DNA of 55,367 nt from an uncultured bacterium (GTDB lineage: Bacteria > Bacteroidota > Bacteroidia > Bacteroidales > Bacteroidaceae), in the NCBI GenBank assembly GCA_945869305.1, contig CAMBOH010000004.1:1-55367 (forward strand), read 5' to 3'. How positions within the stretch are numbered: the stretch's first letter is position 1; every line of letters begins with the position of its first letter. The notes under the pieces are model-generated. The model saw nothing but the letters and a program-made list of their open reading frames with translations, searched no databases and was not told the origin of the DNA. Made by a program: the position numbers and the translations under genes. Shown here piece after piece: positions 36,005-55,267 of the stretch.

Positions 36005-36269
36005 TTGGCCGTTGCCATGAAAAAACGATTAAATTTGCAGTCACTACATGGCCTGTGCCTGCGTGTCTGGTGGCAATTTGCATTAAGAGACGTTTAGGTA
36101 TAGCTGCGCGTTTTGAAGTGTTGGCTTTTAAAAATCGCCGCTTAGAGGCCCTGCTGTTGACCTATCCAAATCTTTATACATACCCTTTCGGTTGCGTCAT
36201 CACCTATAGCTGGCACAACCCTCCTAAATCCTTCAGGAAAATATAAAACAAAAAGAACTAATCTAATTA
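36005..36269 (+). promoter_or_regulatory. Promoter and long leader of the FAS1/SusCD operon
   Basis: TTG at 36005-36007 and TAAATTTG at 36030-36037 (spacer 22) fit a Bacteroidetes promoter. The start would be near 36044, which leaves a leader of about 225 bases before the first ATG. No other gene fits in 35838-36269. The last 35 bases before the ATG are A-rich, as is usual for strong translation in this phylum. Confidence 0.55.
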
Positions 36270-39200
36270 ATGCGTATGAAAAACCGTTTTTGCAGAATGG
36301 GAAAGACGCTGCTTGGTGCAGTGTGTTTGCTGTCGACATGCGGCGTAACGTACTCATGCTCCGATGATTTCGACCTCGACGAAACGAGTCCGTCATTCCT
36401 TGGAGAGAGTATTTACGACGAGTTGAACAAAAGGCAGAATTTCACGACGGTAATCAAGTTGATTGACGAACTCGGTTACAAGGACGTGATGTCGCAAACG
36501 GGTAGTAAGACCCTCTTCGTTGCCGACGATGAGGCTTACAAGAACTTCTTTGCCACACAAACAGCCTGGGTGGATGGAATGGGTAACCCCGTTCGCAGTT
36601 ATGACCAGCTCTCGACCAGCCAGAAGCGTCTGCTCCTGAATGGTTCTATGCTGAACAACGCTTATGTGCTGGAGATGCTCACCACCATTCAAGGACCGGT
36701 GAAGAATCTTTGCTTGCGTCAGCTGTCGGGTATCTCGGCAACTGACTCTGTGCCGTTCTTCCGTTCAGAGGAACTCTTTGAGAACCTGAACGAAGGCCAG
36801 CTTGATGAAAACGGAAAGCCGACGAACGTGGACAAGAAGTTCTGGGACAAGTACCGCAATGGCGGCAAGGGCCTCTATCTGGCTCTCGACAAGACTGAGC
36901 CCATGTTCACCCACTTCCTCGAAGCTCAACTGAAGGAAAAGAAGATTACTCACGGAGATGTCTCGTTCGTTCTGAACCTGGACAATACAGATAAGGAGTG
37001 GAGCGATGAAAACACTGAGAACCGCAGTTATGCTTATGATTGTCAGATTACGGAGGCCGACAATGTCTGCTTGAACGGTTACTTCCACGTGCTCGACAAG
37101 GTGATGGTTACGCCCTCCAATATGGCAGAGGTAATCCGTACCAACGGTTCTACCAACCTCTTCAGCTCGATGCTGGAGCGCTTCAGCGCACCTTACTACG
37201 ATGCTACGCTGACACAGGAGTACAAGGCACTGCACAACATTGCCGCCGACTCCGTGTTCCAGAAGCTCTATATCTCGCAGCGTTCGCAAATCGGTGCCAT
37301 TACGCTTGATCCTGATGGAGAAACATTGGGTGACTATCCTTCGCTGGCCTATGACCCGGGATGGAATACCTACAGTGTGAACAACTCGACCAAGGAACAG
37401 GACATGGCTGCCATGTTCGTGCCCTCTGATGAGGCTATGCGCGAATACTTCGTGAACGGCGGTGGCAAGATGCTGATCGAACGCTACGGTACGCGTCCCA
37501 ATACCTACGAGAACCTGCAGTTCAACCTCTTCCAGATTCCTCTGAACATCGTGAAACCTCTGATTGCCAACCTGATGAAGGAATCGTTCAACGAGTCTGT
37601 GCCCAGCAAGTACCTGACCATCATGAACGATGCCCAGGACCAGATGTTCAGTGCCGAGACCTACAAGTCTATTGCCGAATACAAGGCCCTGTTTGACAAG
37701 GTGCTGCTGGCCAACAACGGTGTCGTATATGTCATGAACCGTGTCATTGGTCCGGCTACCTACTCCTCAGTCATGGCTCCGGTGCTCTATAACGAAGGTA
37801 CCCAGGTGATGAACCGTGTGATTCACGCTGATGACAACTTCACGACGACCAACTACCAGAACGCTCCGTTGCGTAAGTTCTACAGCACCTACCTGCTCGC
37901 CATGCAGTCGAACTTCACCCTGTTCGTTCCGACCGACGAAGGTTTGAAGAACTACGGTATGATTGACCCCATGAGCCTTTCGGCTGCCCGTAAGACCAAC
38001 TACCGCTTCTGGACCTTCCAGCCCGAAGAGGTGAAGGCGTCGGGTGGCAAGCGTCTGGCCGTACGTGCCGAGGCTTATGCCTTTGACCAGAAGACTCCGC
38101 TGAACGAGTCTACCGGCGGCACACCCAAGCAGACGGTATCGGCCGACATCGACCTCGACACAGAATGGGGTAAGGTGAAGGCACAGATGCTGACCGACAT
38201 GCTCGACCAGCACATCCTGGTTCATGAGAACAGTGACGAGGGCGAACTGGGCGTGAACACTTCTCGCCAGTACTTCCTCTCGCGCAGCGGTGCACCTGTG
38301 TTTATCAAGTCCGGCCGCAACAACGGCTCCAATGTGGGCATGAAGGTTGAAGGCGGTATGCAGAACTGGCTGAACAACGACGCGTATGACACCAACGACT
38401 TTGACTGTACCGTACAGGCCAGCCACGACATGAGCCGCGGCACCAATGGCTACGGTAACGGTATGACTTATTTTATTGACCGTCCTATCCAGGCTACAGT
38501 GAACAATGCCTATCGCGTGATGAGCACCACTGACAGCTATATGGACTTCTTCAACGCTTGTCTGGAACTCGACCGCAACACCGAACTGGTGTACACCCTG
38601 TTCCATGAGGACGATATGGAAGATGCCGATTGGAAGAACGAATCCAAGAAGTATCAGATCTTCTCCAGCGAAAACGAGCGCTACACCCAGTATGACCTGA
38701 CCACCAAGACTTACACGCAGTTGGTTCGTTTCTTCAACAACTACCGCTACACGATTTTCGTACCCTCTGCCGATGCCATGCAGAGCGCCTTCAACAACGG
38801 TTTGAAGACCATCGAGGAAATCCAGCAGTTTGTTGACGAGAACACTGACGAAAACAATGTGCTTGACCCTGAAGCCAAGGCCAAGGCACAGGCCATGCTT
38901 GTCTGCTACGTAAACTTCCTGAAGTACCACTTCTGTGACCAGTCGGTATTTGTTGATAACTGTACGGACGAAGTTCAGTGTCAGTCGGCTTGCTCCGATG
39001 AAGAGGGCAACTACCTCAGCGTCTATGTACACCAGACTCCCGGTGCCATCTCACTGACCGACCACAGCAACCGCTCGATCAACGTGACGGGTACTTACAA
39101 CCAGTTGGCACGCGATTTTGAGCTGGATGCTCCGACCGACAATGCCCGCGCCATTCGTTCGTCTTCTTACGTGGTGCTGCACAATGTGAACAATTATCTC

Positions 39201-39293
39201 CTCTTCGACAGCAGCCTGAAGGACAACTTCAGTAAGGCTTGGGAAACTCCCGCCGAAGCAAAGGCATTTGTGAAGAAGTTCCGTCTTATGTAA
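36270..39293 (+). CDS. Fasciclin (FAS1) domain lipoprotein with four repeats
   Basis: A 1007-residue exported lipoprotein; the signal ends at TYSC with lipid Cys30, followed by SDDFDLDE, an acidic stretch that in Bacteroidetes marks lipoproteins sent to the cell surface. Four FAS1-like units are visible by their C-terminal boxes: NGYFHVLDKVMVTP near 270-283, NGVVYVMNRVIGP near 482-495, NGMTYFIDRPIQAT near 730-743 and SSYVVLHNVNNYLLF near 970-985. The matching N-terminal boxes read TLFVADDEAYKNF, MFVPSDEAMREYF, FTLFVPTDEGLKNYG and YTIFVPSADAMQSAF. FAS1 domains bind carbohydrates, proteins or other cells. First gene of the seven-gene operon; SusC starts 13 bases later. Confidence 0.88.
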   Translation: MRMKNRFCRMGKTLLGAVCLLSTCGVTYSCSDDFDLDETSPSFLGESIYDELNKRQNFTTVIKLIDELGYKDVMSQTGSKTLFVADDEAYKNFFATQTAWVDGMGNPVRSYDQLSTSQKRLLLNGSMLNNAYVLEMLTTIQGPVKNLCLRQLSGISATDSVPFFRSEELFENLNEGQLDENGKPTNVDKKFWDKYRNGGKGLYLALDKTEPMFTHFLEAQLKEKKITHGDVSFVLNLDNTDKEWSDENTENRSYAYDCQITEADNVCLNGYFHVLDKVMVTPSNMAEVIRTNGSTNLFSSMLERFSAPYYDATLTQEYKALHNIAADSVFQKLYISQRSQIGAITLDPDGETLGDYPSLAYDPGWNTYSVNNSTKEQDMAAMFVPSDEAMREYFVNGGGKMLIERYGTRPNTYENLQFNLFQIPLNIVKPLIANLMKESFNESVPSKYLTIMNDAQDQMFSAETYKSIAEYKALFDKVLLANNGVVYVMNRVIGPATYSSVMAPVLYNEGTQVMNRVIHADDNFTTTNYQNAPLRKFYSTYLLAMQSNFTLFVPTDEGLKNYGMIDPMSLSAARKTNYRFWTFQPEEVKASGGKRLAVRAEAYAFDQKTPLNESTGGTPKQTVSADIDLDTEWGKVKAQMLTDMLDQHILVHENSDEGELGVNTSRQYFLSRSGAPVFIKSGRNNGSNVGMKVEGGMQNWLNNDAYDTNDFDCTVQASHDMSRGTNGYGNGMTYFIDRPIQATVNNAYRVMSTTDSYMDFFNACLELDRNTELVYTLFHEDDMEDADWKNESKKYQIFSSENERYTQYDLTTKTYTQLVRFFNNYRYTIFVPSADAMQSAFNNGLKTIEEIQQFVDENTDENNVLDPEAKAKAQAMLVCYVNFLKYHFCDQSVFVDNCTDEVQCQSACSDEEGNYLSVYVHQTPGAISLTDHSNRSINVTGTYNQLARDFELDAPTDNARAIRSSSYVVLHNVNNYLLFDSSLKDNFSKAWETPAEAKAFVKKFRLM

Positions 39294-39306
39294 TAAATCT
39301 AATATT

Positions 39307-42300
39307 ATGAATAACATCAAGTTTCTATTGACGCTTGCGCTGTGCTTTTGCTGCTCCCTTTCGTACGCACAAAAGCGCATCTCGGGTCGTGTCTGGAGTA
39401 AACAGGACGGACCGATTGTCATGGCGTATGTTGTAGAGCAGGATAAGAATAACCGTAACGTTACTGCAGCACAGACCGATGCCAACGGTAACTTCTCGAT
39501 GGTTGTGAAGAATCCTGAGAACAAATTGAGAGTATCTTACATCGGTTATCAGACCAAGGTGCTGGCTATCGGTGCAAACACCAAGTTCAACATCGAGCTG
39601 ATCGACAAGAATACTTTTAAGGAAGCTTCGGTTACGGTGACCCGTAAGACGCGCTCCAATGGTCTGGTCATTCCCGAACGAGAAATTTCGACAGCCCAGC
39701 AGACACTCGACATGGACCAGATGGCCGGTCTGTCGTTCGAAACGGCAGCCGACGCACTCCAGGGTGAGATTGCCGGTTTGGATATCGTGTCAAACTCTGG
39801 TAACCTGGGTTCCGGTTCGAGTATGCGTCTTCGTGGTGTTTCATCTATCAACGGTAGTCAGGAACCTCTGATTGTAGTTGATGGCAACATCCTGGAGGAC
39901 TATAACAATGATGATCTCGACCTCGACAACATGGAGAACGAAGAGCAGTTCGCCACTCTGTTGCAGGTAGCTCCCGAAGACATCGCCAGCATCAAGGTGC
40001 TGAAGGATGCTGCGGCAACGGCTATCTGGGGTTCGAGAGGTGCAAACGGTGTAATCGAAATCACTACCCGTCGTGGTGCCCGCGGCAAGACCCGCGTGAA
40101 CTTCAGCTACCGCTTTTCTGGTGCCTGGCAGCCCGAAGGCATGAACATGCTGAACGGTGACGGCTACACCATGATGTTGAAGGAAGCATACCACAATCCC
40201 CGCATCCTGTCGGAAGAGCAGTCGAACATCGCAGAAATCATGTATCTGCAGAACTACTCCTCTTATTATGGTAACTATAACAAGAACACCGACTGGGTGA
40301 AGGAGGTTACACAGTTCGGTCAGACTCACAACTACTCCGTTTCGGTTTCGGGTGGTGGTGAAAAGGCCAACTTCCGTGTGTCAGGTACCTATGACCACGA
40401 GACCGGTACCATCATCAAGCAGGCTCTTGACCGTTTGACAACCCGTCTGGCACTCGACTACTGGGTGTCTGACCGCATCAAGTTCTCGTCAACGTTTGCC
40501 TTGACTTACACCAAGAACAAGAAGAACTACACCAGCGACCTGTTGGGCCGTGCCTACAACGCCATGCCTAACATGTCGGTATACCGTAATGAGTATCGCG
40601 AAACCGCCGACGGCGTAGGCGAATACTTCAACACGGGCGAATACTTTATCATGCCTCCCGCAGCCGGTGAAAGAGGTCTGATCAGTCCTACCAGTGGCAA
40701 GTCGTCTTACTTCCTGAGCGACATGGTTGAAAACGGTAACCCTGTGGCAATTGCCAACCTGGCTTGGGCCAACACCTCTTCTTACACCATCCAGCCCCAG
40801 TTCCAGCTTGAGTACAAGCTGTTGGGCAAGAGCGACGACGAGACGCAGCTGGACTATCGTGGCGAGGTTTACCTCAACGCCTTTACGCAGACCGACGATT
40901 CTTACTATCCCGGTGCACTGACCTCGAAGAGCTGGTACGATTCGGGCGGTACGAACCTTACTTCTGACTACGAACAGAAGCACCTCAAGTTCACGACCCG
41001 TCATCAGCTGACCTTCCATCCCCACTTCGCCAACGACCAGCACCAGCTGCAGGTAATGGGACGCTTTGAGGTATCAAGCCAGAACTCCACTACCCAGTAT
41101 CTTTCTTCTAACGGTATTGTCGGTGGTATCTCCGACCCGACAGTTCCCGGCTATCTGACCGACTCCTGGACCGGTACGGGCAAGGGCCATGAAGCATCGG
41201 GCTTGGGCTCTCTGCACTATGCCTACGGTTCGAAGTACGTGTTCGACGTGACGGTGCGTGCCGATGGTAGCACCCGTTTCGGTTCGGGCAACAAGTGGGG
41301 TGTATTCCCCGGTATCTCCGGCCGTTGGAACATTTCGGACGAAGCTTTCTTTGAACCTTTGAAGAAGGTAGTCAGCATGTTCGCCTTGGCTCCGGGTTGG
41401 GGTATCAACGGTAACACGCCGGGTTCCGAAGGCTTGATGTACAACAAGTACGCCAGCAACAACACCGCCTACAATGGTACACAGGTGATGTATCCCTCCA
41501 ATCTCAAGCTCACCGAAATCCGCTGGGAGAAGACCAAGTCATGGAACGTCGGTGTTTACTTGAACCTGTTTGAGGACCTGATTCAGTTGAACCTGAACGT
41601 CTACAACAAGAAGACCACCGACCTGTTGAACTCCAACGTGCGTGTTCCTTCTACCTCTGGTTTCTCCTACCTGTCCTATGCCAACGTCGGCGACATGGAG
41701 AACGAAGGTTGGGAACTCTATGCCAGCACCCGTGAAATCTTCAAGGTGGGCAAGTTCAGCATGAAGCTGCGCGGTAACATCGCCCAGAACCTGAACACCA
41801 TCACCAAGATGGATGCTTCGGTATTGGCTTCCAACAATGTGGACTATGGCTACGCCAACGGTGAATACATGAAGCGCGTGCAGATCGGTAATGCTCTCGG
41901 TGGCATCTACGGTTTCCGCTTCAAGGGCGTTTACGCTTTCGACTATGACCACAACGGTTACTTCACCAACGACGAGAAGAACCAGTGGTACGATGCACAG
42001 GGCAACCAGAATACGGCTGCCGCCCAGACTGACCCTGCGCTTCGCAAGTCTACGCCTATCGTATTCGATGCTGCCGGCAATGTAGTATACGACAAGAACG
42101 GCAACCCGCTCCCCATGTACTTCAACTACGGTGGCAAGAACTACCAGTTCCAGGGTGGTGACGCCATCTATGAAGATATCAACCACGATGGTAACATCGA
42201 CGAGCTTGATATTGTCTATCTCGGTACCTCCAACCCCAAACTCAATGGTGGTTTCGGTCTGGAGTTCAAGTATGACCGCTGGACTTTGAAGACCAACTTC

Positions 42301-42732: not shown

Positions 42733-42778
42733 GCATGAAATCTTCAAACTGCGCTTTCACCGCGTGCGCGCCACGCAG

Positions 42779-42845
42779 GGCAAAGCCGCTTTGCCGGGTG
42801 TGAATCGCAGGTTCGAGGGTCTGAAGCCCCCCAGGGTGAAGGCTC
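42779..42845 (+). promoter_or_regulatory. Intercistronic hairpins between susC and susD, first pair
   Basis: In the 137-base gap GGCAAAG/CTTTGCC (42779-42795) forms a tight stem, and GTTCGAG can pair imperfectly with CTCGTGAAC further on. The gap is GC-richer than the genes around it. No promoter box is seen. It may set the ratio of SusC to SusD messenger by processing or partial termination. Confidence 0.45.
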
Positions 42846-42869
42846 GTGAACACAAATAATCTCTTTATC

Positions 42870-44843
42870 ATGAAAAGTAAGAAAATATATACAAAGCTTC
42901 TTTTGGCTGGAAGTCTGGTCCTGACAAGTGCTTCGCTGTCTTCTTGCGATGATTTCTTGACCATCCTTCCTACTGACCAGATTCCTGAAGAGAACTTCTG
43001 GCAGGACAAGGCCGACTTGGAGAACGTGCGTGCCGGTGCGTATCAGCTGCTGGCACAGGGCGGCCAAACCTCGAAGATTCTGCTTTGGGGTGAGGTTCGT
43101 GCCGACAACCTGTCGGTCAACGATATGTCGCAAACCAATCTCAGCTATTTGCAGGATGCTGTGCTGCAGCCCAGCTTGAACATGTTTGACTGGTCGGGCT
43201 TCTACACGGGCATCAACTATTGCAACCTGGTGATTGAGCAGGGTGAGGCCATGACTCGTCCTAATGAGGAGGTTGACCCGAGTTTCACGCGGGCTGACTA
43301 TCGTGCCATCCGTGCAGAAATGCTTGCGCTCCGCTCGCTCTACTACTTCTATTTAGTAAAATCCTATCGTGATGTTCCCTACATCACCAGCTCCATCCGT
43401 ACTGATGCACAGGCCAGCAAGGAAAAGCCTGCCGCCACGTCAGGTGTAGCCATCTTGGGTGCCTGCATCGACTCGCTCGAGGCCAACATGGCCTTTGCCG
43501 TGGAGAATTACGGTAGTGAAGCCAAGAACAAGGGACAGTTCACGAAGCTCAGTGTCCATGCCCTCCTCGCCGACATGTATCTGTGGAGAGCCTGTATGCT
43601 GAAGAATTTCACGGCAAAGGGCAATACCCTCTATGCCAATGTGAACATGGCCAACAAGGGCCAGGTGAACCTTTCGGATGTCCGCAAGACCGACGAGCAG
43701 GGTGTTGCCATTGACGGTTACCTTACAGCCGACGGTCAGGAAATCACCGACAGCTACTGCAATACGCTGGCTTCCCAGTGTCTGCAGAAGTCCATCGAAC
43801 ATGCTGACTGGGTGATTAACAAGATCAAGGCAGAATACGACGAAGACCTGAGCAACAACAACAGCGTTGTGTCGCAGGAAGAGCTGAACCAGCCCTATCC
43901 CCTCTATCTCAACCAGAAGTCGGGCTTAGGAATCAGCGACATGCCTTATCTGTATAACTTCGGTGCGCAGAATTCCCGCGAGTCTGTGCTTGAACTCCAG
44001 TATAACGGTACGAACACGACCAACTCTACGGTGAACACCTACTTCTCCGTCTTCCAGAACGGTTCGCTCAATGCCAAATATCTGGCCATTTCAAGCAACC
44101 TCATCGGTTCGGCCACGAGTGTAAATCCTGATGCAGGCTTTGGCAAGACCGACTTCCGTCTGTTCGAAACCTGTAACTATTTCTCGAAGGAAGCCAAGAA
44201 GCCCATCTCCAAGTTTGTGGTGACCGGCTTGTCTTTCATGGATATCAAGGACCTCACGACCAACTCCACGGGCAGCACGCCGTTCACTTCCTATCGCTTG
44301 TCTGACTCGAACGATGCACACTGGCCCATTTACCGCCTGGCCGACATGATGCTCATCAAGGCCGAGGCCATTGCCCGTACGGGTACAACCGACCGCAACA
44401 CGCTGCAGGAAGGTTACCGTTTGGTCAACCAGTTGTTCAAGCGCAACAATCCTGCTCTGGTCGGCCCGAACGATCCTATCGCTTCTTCGACCGATGAAGA
44501 ACTTATCTGCGACCGCGTAGACGACAAGTACGGAGTGAATGCCGACGGCAACTTCGAGAAGACGGCAGCCGACTTGCTCGTGCTCACTTACAGAGAGCGT
44601 CAGCGCGAGTTCGTCTGCGAAGGCAAGCGTTGGTTCGACTTGGTTCGTCAGGCTGAGTTCTCCAACGATACCAAGACAACCCTGAACACCTATGCTGCTG
44701 TCAAGTCGTCCGTAAGAACCCGTCTGAGCGACCTCTGGGGTTTCTACATCCCCATTTACAATGAGGAACTCAAGGTGAACGGCATTGAGAACGGTGGCAA
44801 CCTCTACCAGAATCCGGTTTGGGATCGTTACACTAAAAATTGA
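42870..44843 (+). CDS. RagB/SusD family lipoprotein, first copy
   Basis: A 657-residue surface lipoprotein starting at the ATG at 42870; another ATG 24 bases earlier would add eight residues in front of the signal. The signal MKSKKIYTKLLLAGSLVLTS ends at SLSSC, followed by DDF. DFLTILPTDQIPEENFWQDKADLENVRAGAYQLLA is the typical SusD start, the helical TPR-like region includes ALRSLYYFYLVKSYRDVPYI near residue 160, and the C-terminus has WPIYRLADMMLIKAEAIARTG and RQREFVCEGKRWFDLVR. It is the lid of the channel formed by the first SusC. Nine bases separate it from the next gene. Confidence 0.95.
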   Translation: MKSKKIYTKLLLAGSLVLTSASLSSCDDFLTILPTDQIPEENFWQDKADLENVRAGAYQLLAQGGQTSKILLWGEVRADNLSVNDMSQTNLSYLQDAVLQPSLNMFDWSGFYTGINYCNLVIEQGEAMTRPNEEVDPSFTRADYRAIRAEMLALRSLYYFYLVKSYRDVPYITSSIRTDAQASKEKPAATSGVAILGACIDSLEANMAFAVENYGSEAKNKGQFTKLSVHALLADMYLWRACMLKNFTAKGNTLYANVNMANKGQVNLSDVRKTDEQGVAIDGYLTADGQEITDSYCNTLASQCLQKSIEHADWVINKIKAEYDEDLSNNNSVVSQEELNQPYPLYLNQKSGLGISDMPYLYNFGAQNSRESVLELQYNGTNTTNSTVNTYFSVFQNGSLNAKYLAISSNLIGSATSVNPDAGFGKTDFRLFETCNYFSKEAKKPISKFVVTGLSFMDIKDLTTNSTGSTPFTSYRLSDSNDAHWPIYRLADMMLIKAEAIARTGTTDRNTLQEGYRLVNQLFKRNNPALVGPNDPIASSTDEELICDRVDDKYGVNADGNFEKTAADLLVLTYRERQREFVCEGKRWFDLVRQAEFSNDTKTTLNTYAAVKSSVRTRLSDLWGFYIPIYNEELKVNGIENGGNLYQNPVWDRYTKN

Positions 44844-44852
44844 TTGTAGGTT

Positions 44853-46991
44853 ATGAAAAAGAATAAGATGTATATAAGCCGTTGGGCCGGATTGCTGGGT
44901 GCTGGTATGCTTATAGCCGCTCCCTTCGCAATGACCGGATGCAAGGAGGACATCAGCGAGGATGCATACGCCATCAAGACTATGCAGACCATGATGGACT
45001 GCATCAACTCCACGGACTCCCTGTCTGAAATCAAGGCACTTTTTGAAGAGGTGCGTTTGGGTCGTTCGAGCAATGCTTCGGTGTTGGCCAGTGTGCTTTC
45101 GGCACGTGGTAACTACACCGTGTTCGCTCCCTCCAACCGTGCGGTGCGCATGTATCTGCAGCAGGTCACCGGCAGTGAGTCTGCCACACTGGCTGACCTC
45201 ACCCAGGAACAGAAGGAACTGGTGGCCCTGAACTGTATCATCGACAACGGTACGAACGGTGCCTATGAAATTGCCGATTTCCCCAGTGATGGTGGCACCT
45301 TCAGCACGTCAAACCTGAAAGACAGACGTTTGGCTTGCGAGCAGAATGCCAGCAATGACTATGTAATCAACGGCAACGCTGTGGTTACGCAGTCCAACAT
45401 CGAAGTGTCGAACGGTATGCTCCACGTGGTTGACCATGTGATTGCCCCCTCGACCAACTCCGTGGCCGAGCTGGTACAGGCTGCCGACAACATGCACATC
45501 ATGGGTCAGCTGCTCACCATTACCGGCTGGGCCGACTCTTTGGCGGTAAACACCACGTCGGAGGAGGAGTACGAGAACGAAAACATGGCCTACGCCGGTT
45601 CTACCCGTCGTTTCGCCAGCTTCGATTTCCCCTACATGGAAAAGCGTGTGAAAGGCTATACGGCCTTCATCGAGACCGATGCCGTATTCCAGGCCGACTG
45701 GGGTGTTCCTGCTCCTGAATACGACGAGGTGAATGGTGTTGTCACCAACTGGGACGGTGCCAATGGTGTGTTCGAAGTGTTGAAGTCCAAGCTGGCTGCT
45801 GCCCTTGGCATTGACGCCAACAACTTCCCCACCGACTACACCAGCCCGACCAACCCGCTCAACCAGTTTGTGGCCTATCACATCGTGGACGGTGGTATGG
45901 CAACCGATGAGTTTGTTCACCACCACAACGAGTATGGCTATGACTACGGTACCGACCTCAAGAACCCCTTGAAGTCCGGTTACAGTGTCAACGTGTGGGA
46001 CTACTACACCACCAAGGGCAGCCCCCGAGGCTTGCTCAAGATAACCCAGTTGCCCGACGGCGATACCGATTACTATCTGAATCGTATCAGCTCTTACGAC
46101 AACGGCTTCGACGGTGACTACCACGAAACAGGCTTCGTGCCCAACACACCGACCAATGGTTTGAATGTACGTGTGAACCCCTTGAACGGCGAAAACGACA
46201 ACAACGCACTCAATGGTTTCTACTTCCCCATTGACAACGTGCTGGTCAACTCGCCCGAAACCCGTTCGGCATTGGGCAAGGAAAGAATCCGCATCGACAT
46301 CAGCACCATGTTGCCCGAAATCGTGTCGAACGACCTGCGCGGCCGTTCCGCCCGCTATTTCCCGCAGGGTTACTTCTCTAACATCTGCAACGAGAACCAG
46401 GGCACACAGATTTACTATCTGCAGGACGGCTATGTGGCCAGCAATGGTTCGTGGAAGGACTATCAGGGTGATGAAATTCTGGTTTCCGGCCGTTTCGACT
46501 TTGTGTTGAAGTTGCCCCCCGTGCCCGAAGACGGTACTTACGAACTGCGCATGGGTGCTTCTTTGAACACTTTGCGTTGCATGGTGCAGGTATACATCGG
46601 TGAGTCGCCTTACTCCACCACACCTATCGGTCTGCCTATCGACGAGCGCGAAACCGTCTCGATGATTCCCGGCCAGCCTTGGGTAGCAGATACGGGTGAT
46701 GAGGTAACCGACCGTGAGAACGACCGCAACCTGCGTAACCAGAACTACATGAAGGCACCCAACTACTTCTGCGTGGATGGTTCGAAGGGCAAGGAAACCT
46801 GCCGCAATGCCAGTCCGAGTACACCGGCTTTGCGCCGCATCCTCAACCAGCAGTTCTTCTATCGCAACAAGACCTACTATCTGCGCTTCAAGTCAGCCAT
46901 TGAGAGTGATGTCACGCAGCTCATGCTCGACTACTTCGAGTTTGTACCCACAAATATTTACAACGGCGAAGAGCCTGAGGATATCTGGTAA
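44853..46991 (+). CDS. Fasciclin (FAS1) domain lipoprotein, second in operon
   Basis: A 712-residue exported lipoprotein; the signal ends at MTGC and is followed by KEDISED, a surface-export type of acidic tail. FAS1 unit 1 spans about 45-200 and is clear: YTVFAPSNRAVRMYL and NGMLHVVDHVIAP. Unit 2 spans about 205-468, ends in NGFYFPIDNVLVNS and is more diverged. The rest, about 470-712, is a beta-rich domain with RFDFVLKLPPVPEDGTYELR and LRCMVQVYIGE. The same layout is found in the next gene, so the two are paralogues. It probably binds a ligand or partner at the cell surface alongside the SusCD channels. Confidence 0.88.
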   Translation: MKKNKMYISRWAGLLGAGMLIAAPFAMTGCKEDISEDAYAIKTMQTMMDCINSTDSLSEIKALFEEVRLGRSSNASVLASVLSARGNYTVFAPSNRAVRMYLQQVTGSESATLADLTQEQKELVALNCIIDNGTNGAYEIADFPSDGGTFSTSNLKDRRLACEQNASNDYVINGNAVVTQSNIEVSNGMLHVVDHVIAPSTNSVAELVQAADNMHIMGQLLTITGWADSLAVNTTSEEEYENENMAYAGSTRRFASFDFPYMEKRVKGYTAFIETDAVFQADWGVPAPEYDEVNGVVTNWDGANGVFEVLKSKLAAALGIDANNFPTDYTSPTNPLNQFVAYHIVDGGMATDEFVHHHNEYGYDYGTDLKNPLKSGYSVNVWDYYTTKGSPRGLLKITQLPDGDTDYYLNRISSYDNGFDGDYHETGFVPNTPTNGLNVRVNPLNGENDNNALNGFYFPIDNVLVNSPETRSALGKERIRIDISTMLPEIVSNDLRGRSARYFPQGYFSNICNENQGTQIYYLQDGYVASNGSWKDYQGDEILVSGRFDFVLKLPPVPEDGTYELRMGASLNTLRCMVQVYIGESPYSTTPIGLPIDERETVSMIPGQPWVADTGDEVTDRENDRNLRNQNYMKAPNYFCVDGSKGKETCRNASPSTPALRRILNQQFFYRNKTYYLRFKSAIESDVTQLMLDYFEFVPTNIYNGEEPEDIW

Positions 46992-47018
46992 GCTTTAACT
47001 TGCACAATACATTCAATT

Positions 47019-48986
47019 ATGAAACGATTAACCAACAATACGGTAATGGGTGGTATCTTGGGAGCTGCAATGCTCCTGGGATATACCTCCTGTACCGACG
47101 ACCATTTCGACATCAGAACGGATGTTCCCTCAGCCACCAGCACGTTGTGGCAGAACATCGAGGCCAATGAGCAGTTGAGCGATCTGGAGGCCATCTTGAA
47201 GCGCGTGAAGGTGTACACCAAAGAAGAGGACACCAAGCGCAGCATCACCTATGCCGACCTGCTCAACCAGTCACAGAGCTTCACCTTCTGGGCTCCACTG
47301 AACGGTACCTACAATGCACAGACCTATCTGGAGCAGCTCGACCAGATCGACCAGCTGCGCAGCCAGATTGATGCACTCAGTGCCCAGCTCGGTTCGAGAG
47401 CCGACGAAGACGGCGAAGTTCCTCCTGTTGACGGTGAAGGAGAAGACGGTTCTTCCGACAGTGAGATTGCCAAGCAGATTGCAGAATTGCAGAAGAAGGC
47501 CAACCTGCTGGAGTACAACGTGGGTGTGCAGTTCGCACAGAACCACATTGCCCGCTTCAACTACGAGTCGCAGCCTGGCACGCAGGAAGTGCGCCTGCTG
47601 AACGGCAAGCTCTGCACCTATGATGCAGCAGCCGGCCAGTTCAACGGTGTGCCTCTCCATGCCGACATGAAGACAATCCCCGCTGCCAACGGTACCATGC
47701 ACGTCATCGAAGGCGTTGCACCTTTCTCCTATAATGTATATGAGTACTTCGGTGCCCATTCCGACATTTTCGACAATGTATACAGCACGCTGACAGCCTA
47801 CGACAAGAACACATTCTGGGCTGATGGCAGTGTGCAGGGTGCCATGAATGAGAAGGGCGAAATGGTTTATGTTGACTCTGCCTACATCAACCAGAACGAA
47901 CTGCTGAACCAGTCGCTGGCCCAGATCAAGAACGAGGACAGCCTCTATGTGACAGTGGCTCCCACCGATGCCGCATGGGAGGATGCCTTGGAGAAGGTAC
48001 GTCCCCTCTTCAAGTATGCCACTTCCTACAAGTATGACTACAAGAACAGCAAGTTTGACTTCGCTTCGCAGCTGAAGGATCTTGATGCCGACTCCTTGTC
48101 AGAGTACAACCTGCGCAAGGCATTGCTCACCAGCATGTACTTCTCGCCCTCCATCTTCAGTCAGAAGTTCGAGCGCAATGACATTGCCGGCATAGCCAAC
48201 TATGCAGAGCACGCCGACTCGCTCATCTCCACCAACGGAACCATCTACTACAATCCCAATGCCGAAACCAAGGGCAAGAACCCGCTCTTTGGCAATGTGA
48301 ACTACGTGAAGGCTTCTAACGGTATCATCTATCCTTTGGAATCCTACGATTTGGATCCCAGCTATTCGTTCATGCGTAACCAGACCATCGACCTGCGCAA
48401 CTCCTACAACATCGGTAGCGTGGTGAACGGCCGTAACGGTGACTATGGCGAAACCTTCGTGCTGACCGAGGGCCAGAATCTGAACCCCAATGTCGACGTC
48501 TCGATTATCGAAGACGGCACCTACCGCTATTTCCAGAACAACGGTTCGCAGGTGCTCCAGGTGTACATCCCGTTGCGTAACCTCTACAGCGGCAAGTACC
48601 GCATCCGCGTACAGTTGCTGCCCAATAACGCCAACGTCGACAAGGCCTGGATTGACCAGCCTGCCACCGACGAGGAACCCGAAACGTATCTTGCACAGAA
48701 TACCAAGCTGACTGCCACTCTCTATAGCGATGACGGCGACGTGATTGCCAACTTGGGCAAGGCCGACGCTGTCACCATCGAAGAAGATGCAGCCAAGTTC
48801 TACACCCTGTGGGAGAGCGTAGAGTTCCCCAAGTGCTACGTAAACCTGCCTTCGGGCATCAACAACTCCTTCCCGCTTCTCATGCTCTCGGTAGCTCCTG
48901 CCAACCAGGAAGAAAAGAAGGCCCAGCATGCTCTGAGTATCGCCAAGATTGTTGTTGAGCCAGTGCATCCCGAGGACGTGCAATGA
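47019..48986 (+). CDS. Fasciclin (FAS1) domain lipoprotein, third in operon
   Basis: A 655-residue exported lipoprotein; the signal ends at GYTSC followed by TDDHFD. FAS1 unit 1 (about 30-235) has FTFWAPLNGTYNAQTYL and NGTMHVIEGVAPF and is split by an insertion at about 100-165. That insertion contains a coiled coil (LEQLDQIDQLRSQIDALSAQL), an acidic linker SRADEDGEVPPVDGEGEDGSSD and a second helix (AKQIAELQKKANLLEY). Unit 2 ends in NGIIYPLESYDL near 430-444. A beta-rich domain follows (LQVYIPLRNLYSGKYRIRV). It is a paralogue of the preceding gene, 27 bases away. The coiled-coil insertion is the main difference and suggests oligomerisation or partner binding. Confidence 0.86.
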   Translation: MKRLTNNTVMGGILGAAMLLGYTSCTDDHFDIRTDVPSATSTLWQNIEANEQLSDLEAILKRVKVYTKEEDTKRSITYADLLNQSQSFTFWAPLNGTYNAQTYLEQLDQIDQLRSQIDALSAQLGSRADEDGEVPPVDGEGEDGSSDSEIAKQIAELQKKANLLEYNVGVQFAQNHIARFNYESQPGTQEVRLLNGKLCTYDAAAGQFNGVPLHADMKTIPAANGTMHVIEGVAPFSYNVYEYFGAHSDIFDNVYSTLTAYDKNTFWADGSVQGAMNEKGEMVYVDSAYINQNELLNQSLAQIKNEDSLYVTVAPTDAAWEDALEKVRPLFKYATSYKYDYKNSKFDFASQLKDLDADSLSEYNLRKALLTSMYFSPSIFSQKFERNDIAGIANYAEHADSLISTNGTIYYNPNAETKGKNPLFGNVNYVKASNGIIYPLESYDLDPSYSFMRNQTIDLRNSYNIGSVVNGRNGDYGETFVLTEGQNLNPNVDVSIIEDGTYRYFQNNGSQVLQVYIPLRNLYSGKYRIRVQLLPNNANVDKAWIDQPATDEEPETYLAQNTKLTATLYSDDGDVIANLGKADAVTIEEDAAKFYTLWESVEFPKCYVNLPSGINNSFPLLMLSVAPANQEEKKAQHALSIAKIVVEPVHPEDVQ

Positions 48987-48990
48987 TAAG

Positions 48991-49057
48991 TAAGTGAACA
49001 GGCAGGGTAGGGGACGAAGCCTCCCGAAGGCCACACTCCTTCCCTGCGAGACACTTA
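48991..49057 (+). promoter_or_regulatory. Intercistronic hairpin before the second susC
   Basis: In the 102-base gap TAAGTG and GCAGGG (48991-49007) pair with CCCTGC and CACTTA (49042-49057) around a GC-rich loop. No T run follows directly and no promoter was recognised, so the operon probably continues through it. Confidence 0.45.
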
Positions 49058-49088
49058 TTGCTTCTCACCCATTTAAAAATCGAAAGTA

Positions 49089-52000
49089 ATGAATAATACC
49101 AAGAAAATTCACTTGATGCAGGGAGCACTTCGTGCAGGTGTCTGTCTCTTCATGCTTTCGGGTGCCTGTGTACTTTCAGCACAAACACCGGAAGACGCTG
49201 CTGACGTGGTTGCCGACAATACCGAATCGGTTGAACCTGCAGCAAAGAAAGCCGAAGCACCCCAATATAAGATGAAAGAGGTTTCGGGCTATGTCTACGA
49301 CATTGCCACGAAAAAGCCCTTGGCCGGTGCCAAAGTACAGGCTTTGAACAATCGTTTCTATTCTGCCATTACTGAAGACGATGGCAAGTACACGATACGT
49401 GTGCCCGAGTTCGTGGGCGTGCTCTACATTGCCATGCAGGACTACAATCCCGTACAGCTGGCAGTCAAGGGCAACGAGAGCCAGAATGTGTATCTCACCT
49501 CAGGCATGAAGAAGGACTTCTTCTTCGATGGAACCTCTCTCAACAACAACCAGACCGCGTGGTTCAACGAACCCAACGCCCTGACCATGGAAGAGGAAAT
49601 CGAAAAGGAACTGGGAGGTTCGGTACGCACCATCAACCGTGGCGGTATGCCCGCGCAAGGTGCCGCCATGTTCATCAACGGTTTGAACTCGCTCAATGCC
49701 AATGCCCAGCCCTTGGTCATTGTCGACGGTGTGATGATGGACATGCAGTATGACCGTACCACCCTGCACCAGGGCTTTGTCAACAATCTCTTCAATATCA
49801 TCGACCCCGACGACATTGAGAGCGTTGAGGTTGTGAAGAACGGTACAGCCCTCTATGGTGCCAAGGGTGCCAATGGTGTGCTGCTCGTCAACACCCGCCG
49901 TGGCAAGAGCATGGTAACGCGCATCAACTTCCGCGCATACGGTGGCTTTGAAACCGCTCCCGAACAGATGCAGATGATGAATGCCAGCCAGTACCGCAAC
50001 TACTTCACCGAAGTGGTTGGTACCGTGCCCGACACCAAGATCATCAGCAGCTCGCTCACCATGCCCTACTTCAATGAGGACCCCAGCTACATCTACTATA
50101 ACATGTACCACAACGACACCGACTGGCAGAAGGACCTCTACCACGACGTGTTCACCCAGAACTACAAAGTCAGCGTAGACGGTGGTGACGATGTGGCCAT
50201 GTACCACCTGTCGCTGGGCTACTCGCAGGCCGATGCAACAGCCAAGTGCAACGACTTCAACCGTCTGAACATCCGCTTCAACACCGATGTCAACCTGTTC
50301 AAGGACTTTGTCACCGGCATGGACTTCTCTTATGCCCGCAATGCCTACAACATGCGCGACAACGGTTGGGCAGCCGACTATTCGCAGCGCAACATCTCCT
50401 CGCCCAATGTGCTCGGACTCATCCAGTCGCCCAGCTTGAGCCCTTATGCCCACTACGTGCGCTACACCGAGGGGCTGGGTCTGAATCTGGTGTCGACCGA
50501 CCGCGTCTATTCAGGCAAGGAGTACAGCGATGCCACCAACCCCTTCCGCTATGCTGAGAGCTACGGCTACAACGCCTTGGTCAACCCCTATTGGGTACTG
50601 CTGAACGGACAGGGTGACAACAAGAACTATCAGGAACAGACACAGTTCAACCTGAACATTTCGCCCAGCTACAAGATCAACAAGCACCTCACCATTAAGG
50701 ACCGCTTCAGCTACGTGCTCAACCGCAACAATGAGCGCTACTATCTGCCCAAGAACGGTACTCCTTCGAAGTACGTTGAGGGCCTCGGTAACGTGACCAG
50801 TGTGGTAAGTACGCAGTTCGGCAAGGAAACCACCATCTACAACGACCTGAGCTTCGACTGGCGCAACAACTACGGCAAGCACGACATCGCTGTGCTTGGC
50901 GGCTTCCGCTATTCGTCCTATTCCTACGGCGAAAGCAATATCACCGGTTACAACAACGACCAGGACAAGATGCCTAACATGTCGTATGCCCTGCAGTACA
51001 AGTCGTATGGCGGTACAAACGACAACTGGACCAACCTGGCCTATTACCTCAATGCAGCCTACAGCTATCAGAACAAGTACTTCCTCACCTTGACCAGCAG
51101 CATGGAGTCCTCTTCGCGCTTTGGCAAGGAAGCCGACAGCGGCATCAAGTTGGGCGGTGTTGTCTGGGGGCTCTTCCCCTCGGTACAGGCCGCATGGGTC
51201 ATTTCGGCCGAAGACTGGTTCAATGTCAAGCCCGTCAACTACCTGAAGCTCACCGCAGGTTACGAAATGAGCGGTAACGACAATATCGACTACTACGCAA
51301 CCCGCACCTACTTCGAGAACACGAAGTTCATGGACAAGGCCACGGCACTCGTGCTGTCCAACATCCAGAACCCCAAGCTCCAGTGGGAGACCACCAAGCG
51401 TTTCAATGTAGGTTTGCAGGCCAGCCTGTTCAACAACCGTTTGAACTTCGGCGTTGAATACTTCAACAGCAAGACCACCGACCTGCTCACACGCAAGTCC
51501 GTGAGCGACATCACCGGCCTTACTTATATGTGGACCAACGACGGAGCCTTGAAGAACAGTGGTGTAGACTTCAATGTCAATGCCATGATTGTCCAGACCA
51601 AGAACTTCCGTTGGCAGGCAGGCTTCTCTATCGGTCACTACAAGAACGAAATCAGCGAACTGCCCCAGGCAGCCAACAACCTCATCAAGACCTATGCACT
51701 TGATGAAAACGGCCGCAAGGTTGAGTCCAGCGAGCGCACCATCCAGGGTTACACCAGCTCCATCTACGGTGACAACAACATCCTCACCGCAGTGGGCCAT
51801 GCAGCCGGCGTGTTCTATGGATACCAGACGAACGGTGTGTTCAGCACGGATGCCGATGCAGCAGTAGCCGGCAAGTACGGCTATCTGCGTTACCCCACCG
51901 GTATTGCTGAAACACCCTACCGTGAGTTCAAGGCAGGCGACATGAGGTTTGTCGACCAGAACGGAGACGGTTGGATCAACGAGGCCGATATGGTTGTCAT

Positions 52001-52511
52001 CGGTGACCCCAACCCCGACATCTACGGTAACATCTACACCTCGTTCAGCTGGAAGAGCCTCACGCTCGACGTGAACTTCAAGTACTCTCTGGGCAACGAC
52101 GTGTTCAACTATCAGCGCTCACAGCTCGAATCACTCAACGGAAGCTGGAACCAGACGACGGCAGGTGTCAACCGCTGGCGTTATGAAGGCCAAGTCACCG
52201 ACATCCCCCGTGCAGTCGATACCCGCAGCGAGAGCTGGGTCAACAACGAACGCTTCTCTGACCGCTGGATTGAGGACGGCTCGTTCCTGAAGCTCAAGAA
52301 GGTGCGCCTCACCTACAAGCTGCCCGTCGAACTGAGCTGGCTGCTCGGTCTCTCGGTATGGGGCGAATGCAACAATGTGTTCACCATTTCCAAGTACACG
52401 GGCACAGATCCTGAGTTCTCGGCAGGCAACGGCGTGCTCTATCAGGGCATCGATGCTGGTTTCCTCCCCCAGAGCCGCAACTTTAACTTGGGTGTAACAA
52501 TTAACCTCTAA
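49089..52511 (+). CDS. SusC/RagA family TonB-linked outer-membrane protein, second copy
   Basis: An 1140-residue TonB-dependent transporter. After the signal peptide (cleavage near SGACVLSAQ) comes an alanine- and glutamate-rich linker of about 35 residues (PEDAADVVADNTESVEPAAKKAEAP is its span), then a carboxypeptidase-regulatory-like domain (VSGYVYDIATKKPLAGAKV, about 66-150). The plug has FINGLNSLNANAQPLVIVDG and SVEVVKNGTALYGAKGANGVLLV, and the barrel follows. There is no STN domain. It is clearly diverged from the first SusC in the loops, so the two pairs may take up different ligands or different parts of one ligand. Ends in FNLGVTINL. Confidence 0.95.
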   Translation: MNNTKKIHLMQGALRAGVCLFMLSGACVLSAQTPEDAADVVADNTESVEPAAKKAEAPQYKMKEVSGYVYDIATKKPLAGAKVQALNNRFYSAITEDDGKYTIRVPEFVGVLYIAMQDYNPVQLAVKGNESQNVYLTSGMKKDFFFDGTSLNNNQTAWFNEPNALTMEEEIEKELGGSVRTINRGGMPAQGAAMFINGLNSLNANAQPLVIVDGVMMDMQYDRTTLHQGFVNNLFNIIDPDDIESVEVVKNGTALYGAKGANGVLLVNTRRGKSMVTRINFRAYGGFETAPEQMQMMNASQYRNYFTEVVGTVPDTKIISSSLTMPYFNEDPSYIYYNMYHNDTDWQKDLYHDVFTQNYKVSVDGGDDVAMYHLSLGYSQADATAKCNDFNRLNIRFNTDVNLFKDFVTGMDFSYARNAYNMRDNGWAADYSQRNISSPNVLGLIQSPSLSPYAHYVRYTEGLGLNLVSTDRVYSGKEYSDATNPFRYAESYGYNALVNPYWVLLNGQGDNKNYQEQTQFNLNISPSYKINKHLTIKDRFSYVLNRNNERYYLPKNGTPSKYVEGLGNVTSVVSTQFGKETTIYNDLSFDWRNNYGKHDIAVLGGFRYSSYSYGESNITGYNNDQDKMPNMSYALQYKSYGGTNDNWTNLAYYLNAAYSYQNKYFLTLTSSMESSSRFGKEADSGIKLGGVVWGLFPSVQAAWVISAEDWFNVKPVNYLKLTAGYEMSGNDNIDYYATRTYFENTKFMDKATALVLSNIQNPKLQWETTKRFNVGLQASLFNNRLNFGVEYFNSKTTDLLTRKSVSDITGLTYMWTNDGALKNSGVDFNVNAMIVQTKNFRWQAGFSIGHYKNEISELPQAANNLIKTYALDENGRKVESSERTIQGYTSSIYGDNNILTAVGHAAGVFYGYQTNGVFSTDADAAVAGKYGYLRYPTGIAETPYREFKAGDMRFVDQNGDGWINEADMVVIGDPNPDIYGNIYTSFSWKSLTLDVNFKYSLGNDVFNYQRSQLESLNGSWNQTTAGVNRWRYEGQVTDIPRAVDTRSESWVNNERFSDRWIEDGSFLKLKKVRLTYKLPVELSWLLGLSVWGECNNVFTISKYTGTDPEFSAGNGVLYQGIDAGFLPQSRNFNLGVTINL

Positions 52512-52528
52512 TCTAATGGTGTAATCAA

Positions 52529-52582
52529 GCCGGACACCGGATGCAAGGTGTTCTGCATAACAGCCACATTCGGTGTCCCGGC
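52529..52582 (+). promoter_or_regulatory. Intercistronic hairpin between susC and susD, second pair
   Basis: GCCGGACACCG (52529-52539) pairs with CGGTGTCCCGGC (52571-52582) with a one-base bulge and a 31-base loop. It occupies most of the 97-base gap and again precedes a susD gene. There is no T run. Confidence 0.55.
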
Positions 52583-52608
52583 AGCATTCACTTTATAATT
52601 ATACCACA

Positions 52609-54774
52609 ATGAAATACAAATCGATTTTAAGCCTCTTCATCTTCCTCTTGGGATTTGGTGCCACCACCACGTCTTGCGAAGATATGTTGACGCCCGATAT
52701 GGATCGTTACAGCGAAGGCTTCAGTGGAAAAGACACCGTCTATTTCTACTTGGGCATCCTTCGCAACGTACAGGATATGGTGGAGCAGAACGAGCTGTTG
52801 GCCGATTTGCGCAGTGACCTGGTCACCACCACTTCCTACAGTAGCGACAGCATTGCCGACATCATTAACTACCAGCGTGGCAAGAATGGCGACAACGGTC
52901 TGCTTGACCGTTCGGCCTACTACAAGGTCATCAACCAGTGTAACTTCTATCTGGCCAAGGTCGACACCAATGCGGTGAAGAACAACATCTACTACATGCG
53001 TCGTGAATACGCCCAGGTAGTGGCCATCCGAGCCTGGACCTATCTGCAGTTGGTTCAGACCTACGGCAGGGTGCCCTTCATCAGCAAGCCCGTTGACAAT
53101 GCCAACACGGGTTGGGAGACCAATCCTGCCGAAGGATGGGCTACCCCCGACAATCTCCTCGACCTGCTCAAGGATGAGCTCGAAAAGGCACAGGCTTTTG
53201 AGCACACGCTCGGTGCGCCCAACTACGGCACCTACAACACCGGTAGTGTCTCTTTCAACAGCAGCTACCTGCGCTTCTACACCGACCTCATCATGGGCGA
53301 CCTCTATCTGCTGCGCGGTCAGAGTCGTGAGGACTATGTGATGGCTGCCAAGAACTACTACCGCTTCTTGAAGGACGGTGCCAAGGCAGGCAAACGCGTC
53401 ACCTCGTCAGCCGCTACGTTCAACAAGTTTTCCATTGCCGGCAAGGATTACTACTATCCCGTCATCAGCAATTATGTGTCCAACGGTCTGTCTGCTACTT
53501 CGCTGGTGAGCAATGAGAACATCACCATCATTCCCTCGGCTGCCAACAGCACCTTTGGTCGGGTACTGACCAAATCCGCACAGATTTATGGCTTCGATGC
53601 CAGCTCCTACAACTCCACCACCGGTGGTGAGAACAATGCCACCGATGCCACGACTTCGGGTGCTGTGAGCCTTAGGGCTAACCTCCGCTCGCGTCAGGTC
53701 GGCCCCTCACAGGCATACTTGAAGCTCTGTGCTGCCCAGACCTATGCCGTTGTCGAGAACAAGGGAAGCTCCAACGTAGAGTCGGAGTCAGAGGTCGATT
53801 ACTATGAAGGTGCAGGCGATGCCCGCGTATATGCCAACGTGCCCACCTTCGAAACGACCGACGGCAAGGCACAGTACATCGTGAAGAGTGCCCCTGTCAC
53901 CAACGTCAGCAACGACGGCGAGGCATTCAACGCCTCCTTCAAGTACTACAAGTCGCTCTACCGCCTCTCGCAGGTCTACCTGCGCTATGCCGAAGCCATC
54001 AACCGCGCGGGCTATCCTCGTATGGCTTATGCCATTCTGCGTGACGGTATCAACTTCGAGAAGATGCCTGCACTGGCCGATTCCGTACGCTATGACGACG
54101 TGAACCAGACCAAGCAGACGGTATTCTACCTGGACAGCGCCACAGTCATCGATGCCGTCAACTATATTGGTGTCGACGAGCTGCGCCGTGCACAGGATGA
54201 GCCCCTCTACACCGAGTTCATCGACTTCAGCAGCAACATCTGGTCGAACCAGGGTATCCATGAGCACGGTTGCGGCACCGCTTCAACGCTCGATACGCTG
54301 TTCTGCTACGACAACACCATTCCTCAGCGCATTGCTGACCAGAATGCCCTCTATCAGGCACTCGGTCTCTCTGCTTCGGTTCAGCCTGCTCAGGTGAGCC
54401 GAGCCGATGAGGCAGAAGGCGAAGAAGGCGGTGAAGGCGAAGGTGAAGAACCCGACCGCAGCAACTACGTGGAGATTGACCCCGAACCTTACCAGCAGGC
54501 CAATCAGGACGAAATCGATGCCGTAGAGAGCCTCATTGCCGATGAACTGGCACTCGAGACCGCTTACGAAGGCACCCGTATGTTCGACCTCATCCGTATT
54601 GCTCGCCACAAGGATGTGGCCAATCCCGGATATGGTACCCACTGGCTGGCATGGAAGATTGCCCGCCGCGATGTAGACCTGCTTCCGTTCGAGAACCTCA
54701 CACAGTTCAACGCTACGCTCTACAGCCTGTTGCTCAATGCAGAGAATTGGTACATTGCCAATCCCGAATATTGA
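52609..54774 (+). CDS. RagB/SusD family lipoprotein, second copy
   Basis: A 721-residue surface lipoprotein starting at the ATG at 52609; an in-frame ATG 36 bases earlier lies within the hairpin region and would place twelve residues before the signal. The signal MKYKSILSLFIFLLGFGA ends at TTSC with EDMLTPD after it. AIRAWTYLQLVQTYGRVPFI near residue 140 is the SusD TPR signature, and LYRLSQVYLRYAEAINRAGYP and ETAYEGTRMFDLIRIARHKD mark the C-terminal half. Near residues 595-620 there is an acidic insertion, SRADEAEGEEGGEGEGEE, unusual for SusD and echoing the linker of the third FAS1 protein. Last gene of the operon. Confidence 0.93.
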   Translation: MKYKSILSLFIFLLGFGATTTSCEDMLTPDMDRYSEGFSGKDTVYFYLGILRNVQDMVEQNELLADLRSDLVTTTSYSSDSIADIINYQRGKNGDNGLLDRSAYYKVINQCNFYLAKVDTNAVKNNIYYMRREYAQVVAIRAWTYLQLVQTYGRVPFISKPVDNANTGWETNPAEGWATPDNLLDLLKDELEKAQAFEHTLGAPNYGTYNTGSVSFNSSYLRFYTDLIMGDLYLLRGQSREDYVMAAKNYYRFLKDGAKAGKRVTSSAATFNKFSIAGKDYYYPVISNYVSNGLSATSLVSNENITIIPSAANSTFGRVLTKSAQIYGFDASSYNSTTGGENNATDATTSGAVSLRANLRSRQVGPSQAYLKLCAAQTYAVVENKGSSNVESESEVDYYEGAGDARVYANVPTFETTDGKAQYIVKSAPVTNVSNDGEAFNASFKYYKSLYRLSQVYLRYAEAINRAGYPRMAYAILRDGINFEKMPALADSVRYDDVNQTKQTVFYLDSATVIDAVNYIGVDELRRAQDEPLYTEFIDFSSNIWSNQGIHEHGCGTASTLDTLFCYDNTIPQRIADQNALYQALGLSASVQPAQVSRADEAEGEEGGEGEGEEPDRSNYVEIDPEPYQQANQDEIDAVESLIADELALETAYEGTRMFDLIRIARHKDVANPGYGTHWLAWKIARRDVDLLPFENLTQFNATLYSLLLNAENWYIANPEY

Positions 54775-54823
54775 TTCGGCTGCCAACAGTGAATCCTTTA
54801 GGCTGTAAGTCAGCCTTACCCAG

Positions 54824-54856
54824 GGGGATGTGCCAATCCGGCACATCCCCTTTTTT
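54824..54856 (+). terminator. Terminator of the FAS1/SusCD operon
   Basis: A perfect 11-bp stem (GGGGATGTGCC with GGCACATCCCC), with a 5-base loop, is followed by six T residues, 50 bases after the last susD stop. Confidence 0.9.
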
Positions 54857-55207
54857 CTGCTACCGGGAGCGCAAGTTTCCAGCCTGCTGTACAGGGAGAA
54901 CGGGCCGGATGCCCGCATTTTATGTCGTAAGGCAGGCTGAAGGTCTGCTATCCTGGTGTCACATTGCCTGTAAAAACATGGTTTCATGAGCAGAATACCT
55001 GTTGTTCTGCCACTTCCACAACACCTTTGCATCGTTCCGCTGGCCCTGACTGATAGTTGTGTCAAGGTCCGAACACGTTGCGACTCCTTAATTTTCATGC
55101 ATGCAATTGTGGTATATGAATAATTTTTACGATATTTGCGGGCAACTGAGCGCAGTGTCAAACTTGTTAAAAGATGGAATGCGCGCATTCTTCTTAGGGA
55201 AGTTGAA
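54857..55207 (+). promoter_or_regulatory. Gene-free tail with a possible promoter
   Basis: No gene is seen. TTG at 55107-55109 and GATATTTG at 55131-55138, with a 21-base spacer, resemble a Bacteroidetes promoter with one mismatch. If real it reads into the repeat array and beyond the window. Confidence 0.4.
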
Positions 55208-55209
55208 GG

Positions 55210-55253: not shown

Positions 55254-55267
55254 GATTGTTTTCCGAA

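Follow-up and report, generated by a model that had tools for sequence, protein, structure and literature searches.

In Porphyromonas gingivalis, RagAB consists of a single SusCD-type pair that takes up a peptide ligand and works without a glycoside hydrolase (GH); we know of no FAS1 proteins that belong to it. The SusCD utilisomes of Bacteroides thetaiotaomicron, as set out in the accessible part of their description, contain SusC2D2 together with a single glycoside hydrolase at the surface and a single binding lipoprotein, placed on the SusC lip (PMC7618045). A figure legend for a Gramella polysaccharide utilisation locus (PUL) names a FAS1 protein (PMC4891872), and the available portion of a study on a mussel symbiont reports strong transcription of a FAS1 gene and mentions SusCD pairs apart from it (PMC10199937). 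Searches of the open-access full-text literature, a scope outside which most subscription papers fall, gave no account of FAS1 proteins and SusCD as a unit. The locus described here unites them. It lies in a window of 55,367 nucleotides that makes up one entire contig (C4; CAMBOH010000004.1) of an uncultured Bacteroidaceae bacterium of the Alloprevotella/Prevotellamassilia type, and it comprises seven genes between 36270 and 54774, all on the + strand, in the order F1, C1 (SusC1), D1 (SusD1), F2, F3, C2 (SusC2), and D2 (SusD2), where F1, F2, and F3 encode predicted FAS1 lipoproteins. An earlier sequence-only reading of this DNA had given the same succession, FAS1-SusC-SusD-FAS1-FAS1-SusC-SusD, and is confirmed in this respect.

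The order F1-C1-D1-(F2)-F3-C2-D2 is deeply conserved. Among relatives, where the sequence-only reading had proposed to look for it, it is kept in 133 of 134 F1-bearing stretches, as far as the DNA reaches, and scattered genes were not seen. These 134 belong to 139 stretches covered by all-frame profile searches, which were selected by F1 or F3 matches together with hand-picked paralogous copies and are not independent, as at least eight genomes are present twice. Many stretches are cut by an edge: 49 reach D2, and one (L143) contains F1 alone and is no test of order. The exceptions are L177, in which F1 occurs without a SusC, and L178, L179, and L182, in which F2 occurs without the rest. F2 is absent from at least 30 stretches, is present as two or three frames in a few (L107, L124, L144, L176, and G030), and follows D2 in two of the 49 stretches that reach it, once in place of its position before F3 (G257) and once as an extra copy (G227). 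SusD1 is divided between two frames in G227, as is SusC2 in G447. Named loci come from Dysgonomonas, Candidatus Symbiothrix, and rumen, gut, and oral genomes of the Prevotella group.

Within the genus, F1 was found in 46 of 58 genomes and C2 in 42, each including 18 of the 19 good ones; the module is close to core in Alloprevotella. The closest named record is the metagenome-assembled genome contig CALZRA010000014.1, which is 97% identical. Three wider F1 searches (family, order, and phylum) each scored at most two candidates per genome. In the family, F1 was matched below 1e-60 in 116 of 298 genomes (14 of 22 genera). Across the order, some F1 match at 1e-3 was obtained in 38 of 295 genomes and one above 400 bits in 11, the window's genome included. 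In a phylum sample of 392 genomes, few of those listed being Bacteroidales, F1 passed 1e-40 in the window's own genome only.

The two SusCD pairs are strictly associated. Profile searches for SusC1 and SusC2, separate from each other and independent of F1 (cut at E 1e-270, at most seven candidates scored per genome), returned 111 and 110 matches in 63 and 62 of 101 family genomes; a solitary SusC1 falling short of these limits could have escaped them. For 107 of the 111 SusC1 genes, spread over 14 genera, a SusC2 gene follows on the same strand at a distance of 6.4-13.2 kb (median 8.9 kb). Three of the four without a partner are probably contig-end cuts, their genomes each carrying an unpaired SusC2 on a different contig, and the remaining one (G121) is the weakest full-length match (927 bits). 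The numbers of SusC1 and SusC2 matches are equal in all 62 genomes having both, and one genome (G087) contains at least seven of each. In a tree over 42 loci, with three SusCs as outgroup, SusC1 forms one clade (support 0.997) and SusC2 another (support 1.0). In the same loci, the distances of the six slots other than F2 are correlated (r 0.78-0.96, against at most 0.22 in 200 permutations). Chance co-location is ruled out by the pairing and by the conserved order. Judged from tree and distances, the module is passed on as a block, its two channels having diverged before it spread.

Pfam and NCBIfam scans found no enzyme family among the seven products, and thus the locus lacks the glycan-active enzymes by which a PUL is recognised. 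The gaps from F1 to D2 are at most 136 bp in 28 stretches, leaving no room for an enzyme gene. The right edge of the window was a further concern, since hydrolases just past it had been named as one of two findings that would make the module a common utilisation locus. In a sister contig (G482; 31070 bp, 97% identical), D2 is followed instead by a spacer of about 1 kb and then lipid A genes: frames of 375 and 461 aa, the sizes of lpxD and lpxC-fabZ, and then LpxA and MiaA, which were identified by Pfam and are the products scanned within 8 kb after D2. In G015, the module is followed by LpxD, LpxC-FabZ, LpxA, an unknown gene, MiaA, and a penicillin-binding protein. Genes of the lpx cluster are next on the + strand in five of seven same-genus genomes, with two minus-strand frames intervening in G064, and in G114 the next large frame lies on the opposite strand. 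Another of the seven (G142) encodes a GH77 4-alpha-glucanotransferase with a starch-binding domain on the same strand, 196 bp after D2. The claim that no degradative enzyme is present therefore holds for the seven genes and not for every neighbourhood. Most of the ten proteins scanned from the window's left part are envelope or housekeeping proteins, which, together with the lpx neighbours, speaks against a transferred PUL. Frames resembling the lpx, miaA, and penicillin-binding protein cluster lie upstream of the module in some distant relatives; given these and the lpx neighbours in the genus, a history of mostly vertical descent is likely.

We consider it fairly probable (roughly 60%) that the module encodes a SusCD-type complex for capture at the cell surface and TonB-dependent uptake, mainly of a glycan ligand. 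Surface capture combined with two SusCD channels had been suggested from sequence and is still the best reading, with the order conserved and no hydrolase seen in the sister contig just past the point that matches the window's right edge. By analogy with the utilisomes, F1, F2, and F3 would decorate the two SusCD pairs. F1, F3, and F2, the latter with its carbohydrate-binding-like tip, may be anchored at the outer membrane, where they would bind a polymer or its fragments, or act as a scaffold for them, and pass them to two different SusCD channels; these would import the pieces with TonB energy. Since the module contains no cutting enzyme, it would import oligomers released elsewhere, either by enzymes encoded at other sites or by other microbes. 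A glycan or glycoconjugate is a more likely ligand than a plain peptide.

Table 1. Genes of the module and putative expression signals in the window.
Feature	Coordinates	Strand	Description	Score or remark
TAAATTTG box	36030-36037	+	Resembles the Bacteroidota -7 element	Weak; without a good -33 partner
F1	36270..39293	+	1007-aa predicted surface lipoprotein, four FAS1 domains	Pfam Fasciclin 50.3 bits; model pLDDT (predicted local distance difference test) 78.4
C1	39307..42732	+	SusC-type TonB-dependent outer-membrane transporter, 1141 aa	TIGR04056 630.7 bits
D1	42870..44843	+	SusD-type lipoprotein, 657 aa from ATG 42870 (GTG frame from 42846)	SusD_RagB 60, SusD-like_3 56.7 bits
F2	44853..46991	+	712-aa lipoprotein, predicted to have two FAS1 domains (~44-467) and a C-terminal jelly roll (~472-703) like that of a carbohydrate-binding module (CBM)	Fasciclin 56.3 bits; model pLDDT 79.6
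F3	47019..48986	+	655-aa lipoprotein, divergent N-terminal FAS1	hhalign to F2 FAS1 97.4%, E 9e-12
C2	49089..52511	+	Second SusC-type transporter, 1140 aa	TIGR04056 593.6 bits
D2	52609..54774	+	Second SusD-type lipoprotein, 721 aa from ATG 52609 (GTG frame from 52573)	SusD-like_3 32.6, SusD_RagB 27.7 bits
Intrinsic terminator-like site	54822-54852	+	13-pair stem, then T-run	Only strong one in 35800-55367

The seven genes are closely spaced, with intergenic gaps of 9-113 bp when the first start codons are used and at most 137 bp with the SusD ATGs at 42870 and 52609 (Table 1). The claim of a single terminator stood, as the two other + strand terminator-like sites between 35800 and 55367 are a 7-pair stem within F1 and a 5-pair stem at 54901. 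The promoter claim fared less well: the upstream box resembles the -7 consensus of Bacteroidota, TAnnTTTG, but its good -33 partner is missing, and a single promoter for the seven genes is weakly supported. Rfam at gathering score matched one tRNA and nothing else in a search for a riboswitch or RNA leader. The contig ends in a tandem repeat with a 23-bp unit (4.3 copies, 94% match, 55270-55367), which is the probable cause of the assembly break.

Both transporters exceed the curated cut-off of TIGR04056, the NCBIfam SusC model (368.25), and C2 is 26% identical to C1 by BLASTP. The STN domain, which would indicate a control route, is not among the Pfam matches of C1 or C2. Plasmid carriage found no backing, since tblastn with C2 returned SusCs below 60% identity and none closer. 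D1 and D2 both score above the Pfam cut-offs (23.1 for SusD_RagB and 27 for SusD-like_3) and carry a lipobox. Surface lipoproteins follow the lipoprotein export signal (LES) rule, in which an acidic export signal stands just after the lipid Cys. Acidic residues at this position had been claimed for five lipoproteins and are seen in all five (YSC-SDDFD, SSC-DDFLT in D1, TGC-KEDIS, TSC-TDDHF, and TSC-EDMLT in D2), which are accordingly predicted to be exported to the surface. In relatives, an acidic residue lies within three positions of the Cys in 12 of 22 F1, 14 of 28 D1, 17 of 20 F2, 26 of 28 F3, and 23 of 26 D2 proteins, as counted with a crude pattern that picked the wrong Cys in some.

The model of F1 aligns domain by domain with the four-FAS1 proteins TGFBIp and periostin over about 970 columns, in agreement with the proposed fourfold repeat. 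The mutual arrangement of the domains differs (root-mean-square deviation 13-18), and both ends of the model also align singly to FAS1 structures. FAS1 had likewise been assigned to genes 4 and 5. For gene 4 (F2) this follows from Pfam, while gene 5 (F3) has no Pfam FAS1 match and is assigned FAS1 at its N-terminus by profile-profile comparison only; its match to TGFBIp reaches E 3.5e-8 over the whole sequence, with no single stretch passing alone. Profile comparison gave no convincing match between the middle and C-terminal parts of F3 and those of F2. The closest folds to the C-terminal domain of F2 are xanthan-binding modules (7ehg and xanthan lyase 6f2p) at 15-20% identity. F2-type lipoproteins also occur away from any module SusC, alone or in tandem, in L178, L179 (G099:C3), and L182, and the lone F2 of L178 (Prevotellamassilia timonensis) adjoins a GH20 hexosaminidase gene. 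PADLOC, run for a defence system, gave no match for F1-F3.

Upstream, the nearest same-strand gene lies at least 100 bp from the module in 52 of 56 loci. Of 77 upstream neighbours meeting length and gap limits, five were left out by hand and 72 were scanned; among the families listed (25 of 61), there were eight GH-core, seven M64, three M6, and three GH43 proteins, and many neighbours are housekeeping genes. GH67 and GH43-CBM6 genes adjoin two paralogous copies within one genome. A GH43 gene lies upstream in Dysgonomonas (L116), as do GH43-CBM6 and esterase genes in L139, the nearest 386-652 bp from F1; by eye, other neighbours in these two loci resemble GH2, GH3, and GH31. The few downstream genes scanned included, once each, one for a sialidase-like BNR protein (G040) and one for an amidase, which starts 12 bp after D2 (G030). 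The neighbourhood genes favour glycans and are compatible with glycoproteins or peptides too. Rumen relatives (L089, L090, L093, L100, L103, L119, and L122) share an upstream block of a uvrA-like gene (by eye), an M64 peptidase, and a GH-core protein of about 960 aa. Secreted proteins of about 1060-1090 aa without a Pfam match flank the module at L107:3227-6406, L181:610-3867, and L065:16776-19998, and the downstream protein of L065 (G029) contains an HETNH motif by eye and is perhaps a new metallopeptidase family. In the window itself, the gene upstream of the module (34749-35837) encodes a Rid-like protein of 362 aa that weakly resembles FkbO/Hyg5 chorismatases; relatives of this protein are likewise upstream in G015, G099, and L069. 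Farther away are envelope genes for an LptF/LptG-type permease (15411-17837) and an EptA-type phosphoethanolamine transferase (29175-30794), as well as a gene of the - strand for a member of the S9 prolyl-oligopeptidase family (8759-10591), 26 kb from the module.

The ligand might instead be a peptide or glycopeptide, taken up as by RagAB of Porphyromonas and supplied by secreted peptidases. The M64 peptidase that adjoins the module in several rumen relatives, the M6 peptidase in three others, and the presence of RagA among the solved relatives of both C1 and C2 (C2: E 5.5e-44) all speak for this reading. We nevertheless regard a peptide system as unlikely: for both SusCs the closest solved chain is the dextran SusC 8aa4 (C1: E 3e-82), with RagA ranking lower, D1 comes closest, among solved SusDs, to NanU, which binds sialic acid (a weak match, 51 bits), GH genes are neighbours too, and F2 has its CBM-like tip. 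It is rather improbable that the module is mainly an adhesion structure, in which FAS1 proteins would attach to the surfaces of a host or neighbour and SusCD-like proteins would serve as anchors. TGFBIp, periostin, and fasciclin I, the closest folds, are adhesion-related proteins, and the module is present in Candidatus Symbiothrix and in numerous Bacteroidales of the gut and mouth; yet a purely anchoring role would not call for two SusC/SusD pairs that are complete, well conserved, and kept strictly together, and in some genomes the module has multiplied in the manner of nutrient loci. Least probable of all is an ordinary PUL, just one more SusCD locus with its enzymes elsewhere in the genome. 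In Bacteroidota, enzymes are known to be encoded at a distance from SusCD, and related copies adjoin GH67, GH43, and GH-core genes, but two distinct SusC lineages paired so widely are more rigid than we would expect of fast-shuffling loci, no control with other double SusCD loci having been run.

A bolder form of the uptake complex is also conceivable, in which SusC1D1 and SusC2D2 would join in a single mixed twin-barrel transporter, unlike the established SusC2D2 dimers of one kind of pair, and the FAS1 lipoproteins would act as a surface scaffold where other utilisomes hold a hydrolase. The result would be an enzyme-free, obligately two-channel scavenger peculiar to Bacteroidales. Because SusC1 and SusC2 are so strictly paired, the mixed barrel is a real possibility, and the proposal as a whole is a tentative one that we think will probably not hold. 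The same pairing would arise from a single ligand available in two sizes if each size had a channel to itself, and the available part of a SusCD review gave no mixed SusC pair (PMC11658791).

Two anciently different SusCs kept together at 107 of 111 places offer a natural test of mixed SusC pairs, and the module is likewise a test of what a SusCD machine does without an enzyme of its own. The host's incomplete genome contains five SusC genes over the cut-off, two of which the module supplies. With its near-core status in Alloprevotella, this indicates that the module probably meets a basic requirement of bacteria common in the gut and mouth.

Compared with known systems, the module resembles several in part. 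TGFBIp and periostin, which are animal matrix proteins, have the same row of four FAS1 domains as F1, whereas F2 has two; F1-F3 differ from them as predicted bacterial lipoproteins, F2 with an extra jelly roll. That jelly roll is common to the xanthan-binding modules and the C-terminus of F2, a shared fold that alone does not identify the ligand. RagAB of P. gingivalis is, like each half of the module, a SusCD-type pair, and RagA is among the solved proteins related to C1 and C2. The levan and dextran (BT3087-3090) utilisomes of B. thetaiotaomicron, as far as the accessible part of their description goes, share with the module a SusC TonB transporter, a SusD lid, and extra surface lipoproteins in each locus (PMC7618045). 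Whereas these utilisomes combine one SusCD pair with a hydrolase, the module combines two different SusCD pairs with FAS1 lipoproteins and no hydrolase.

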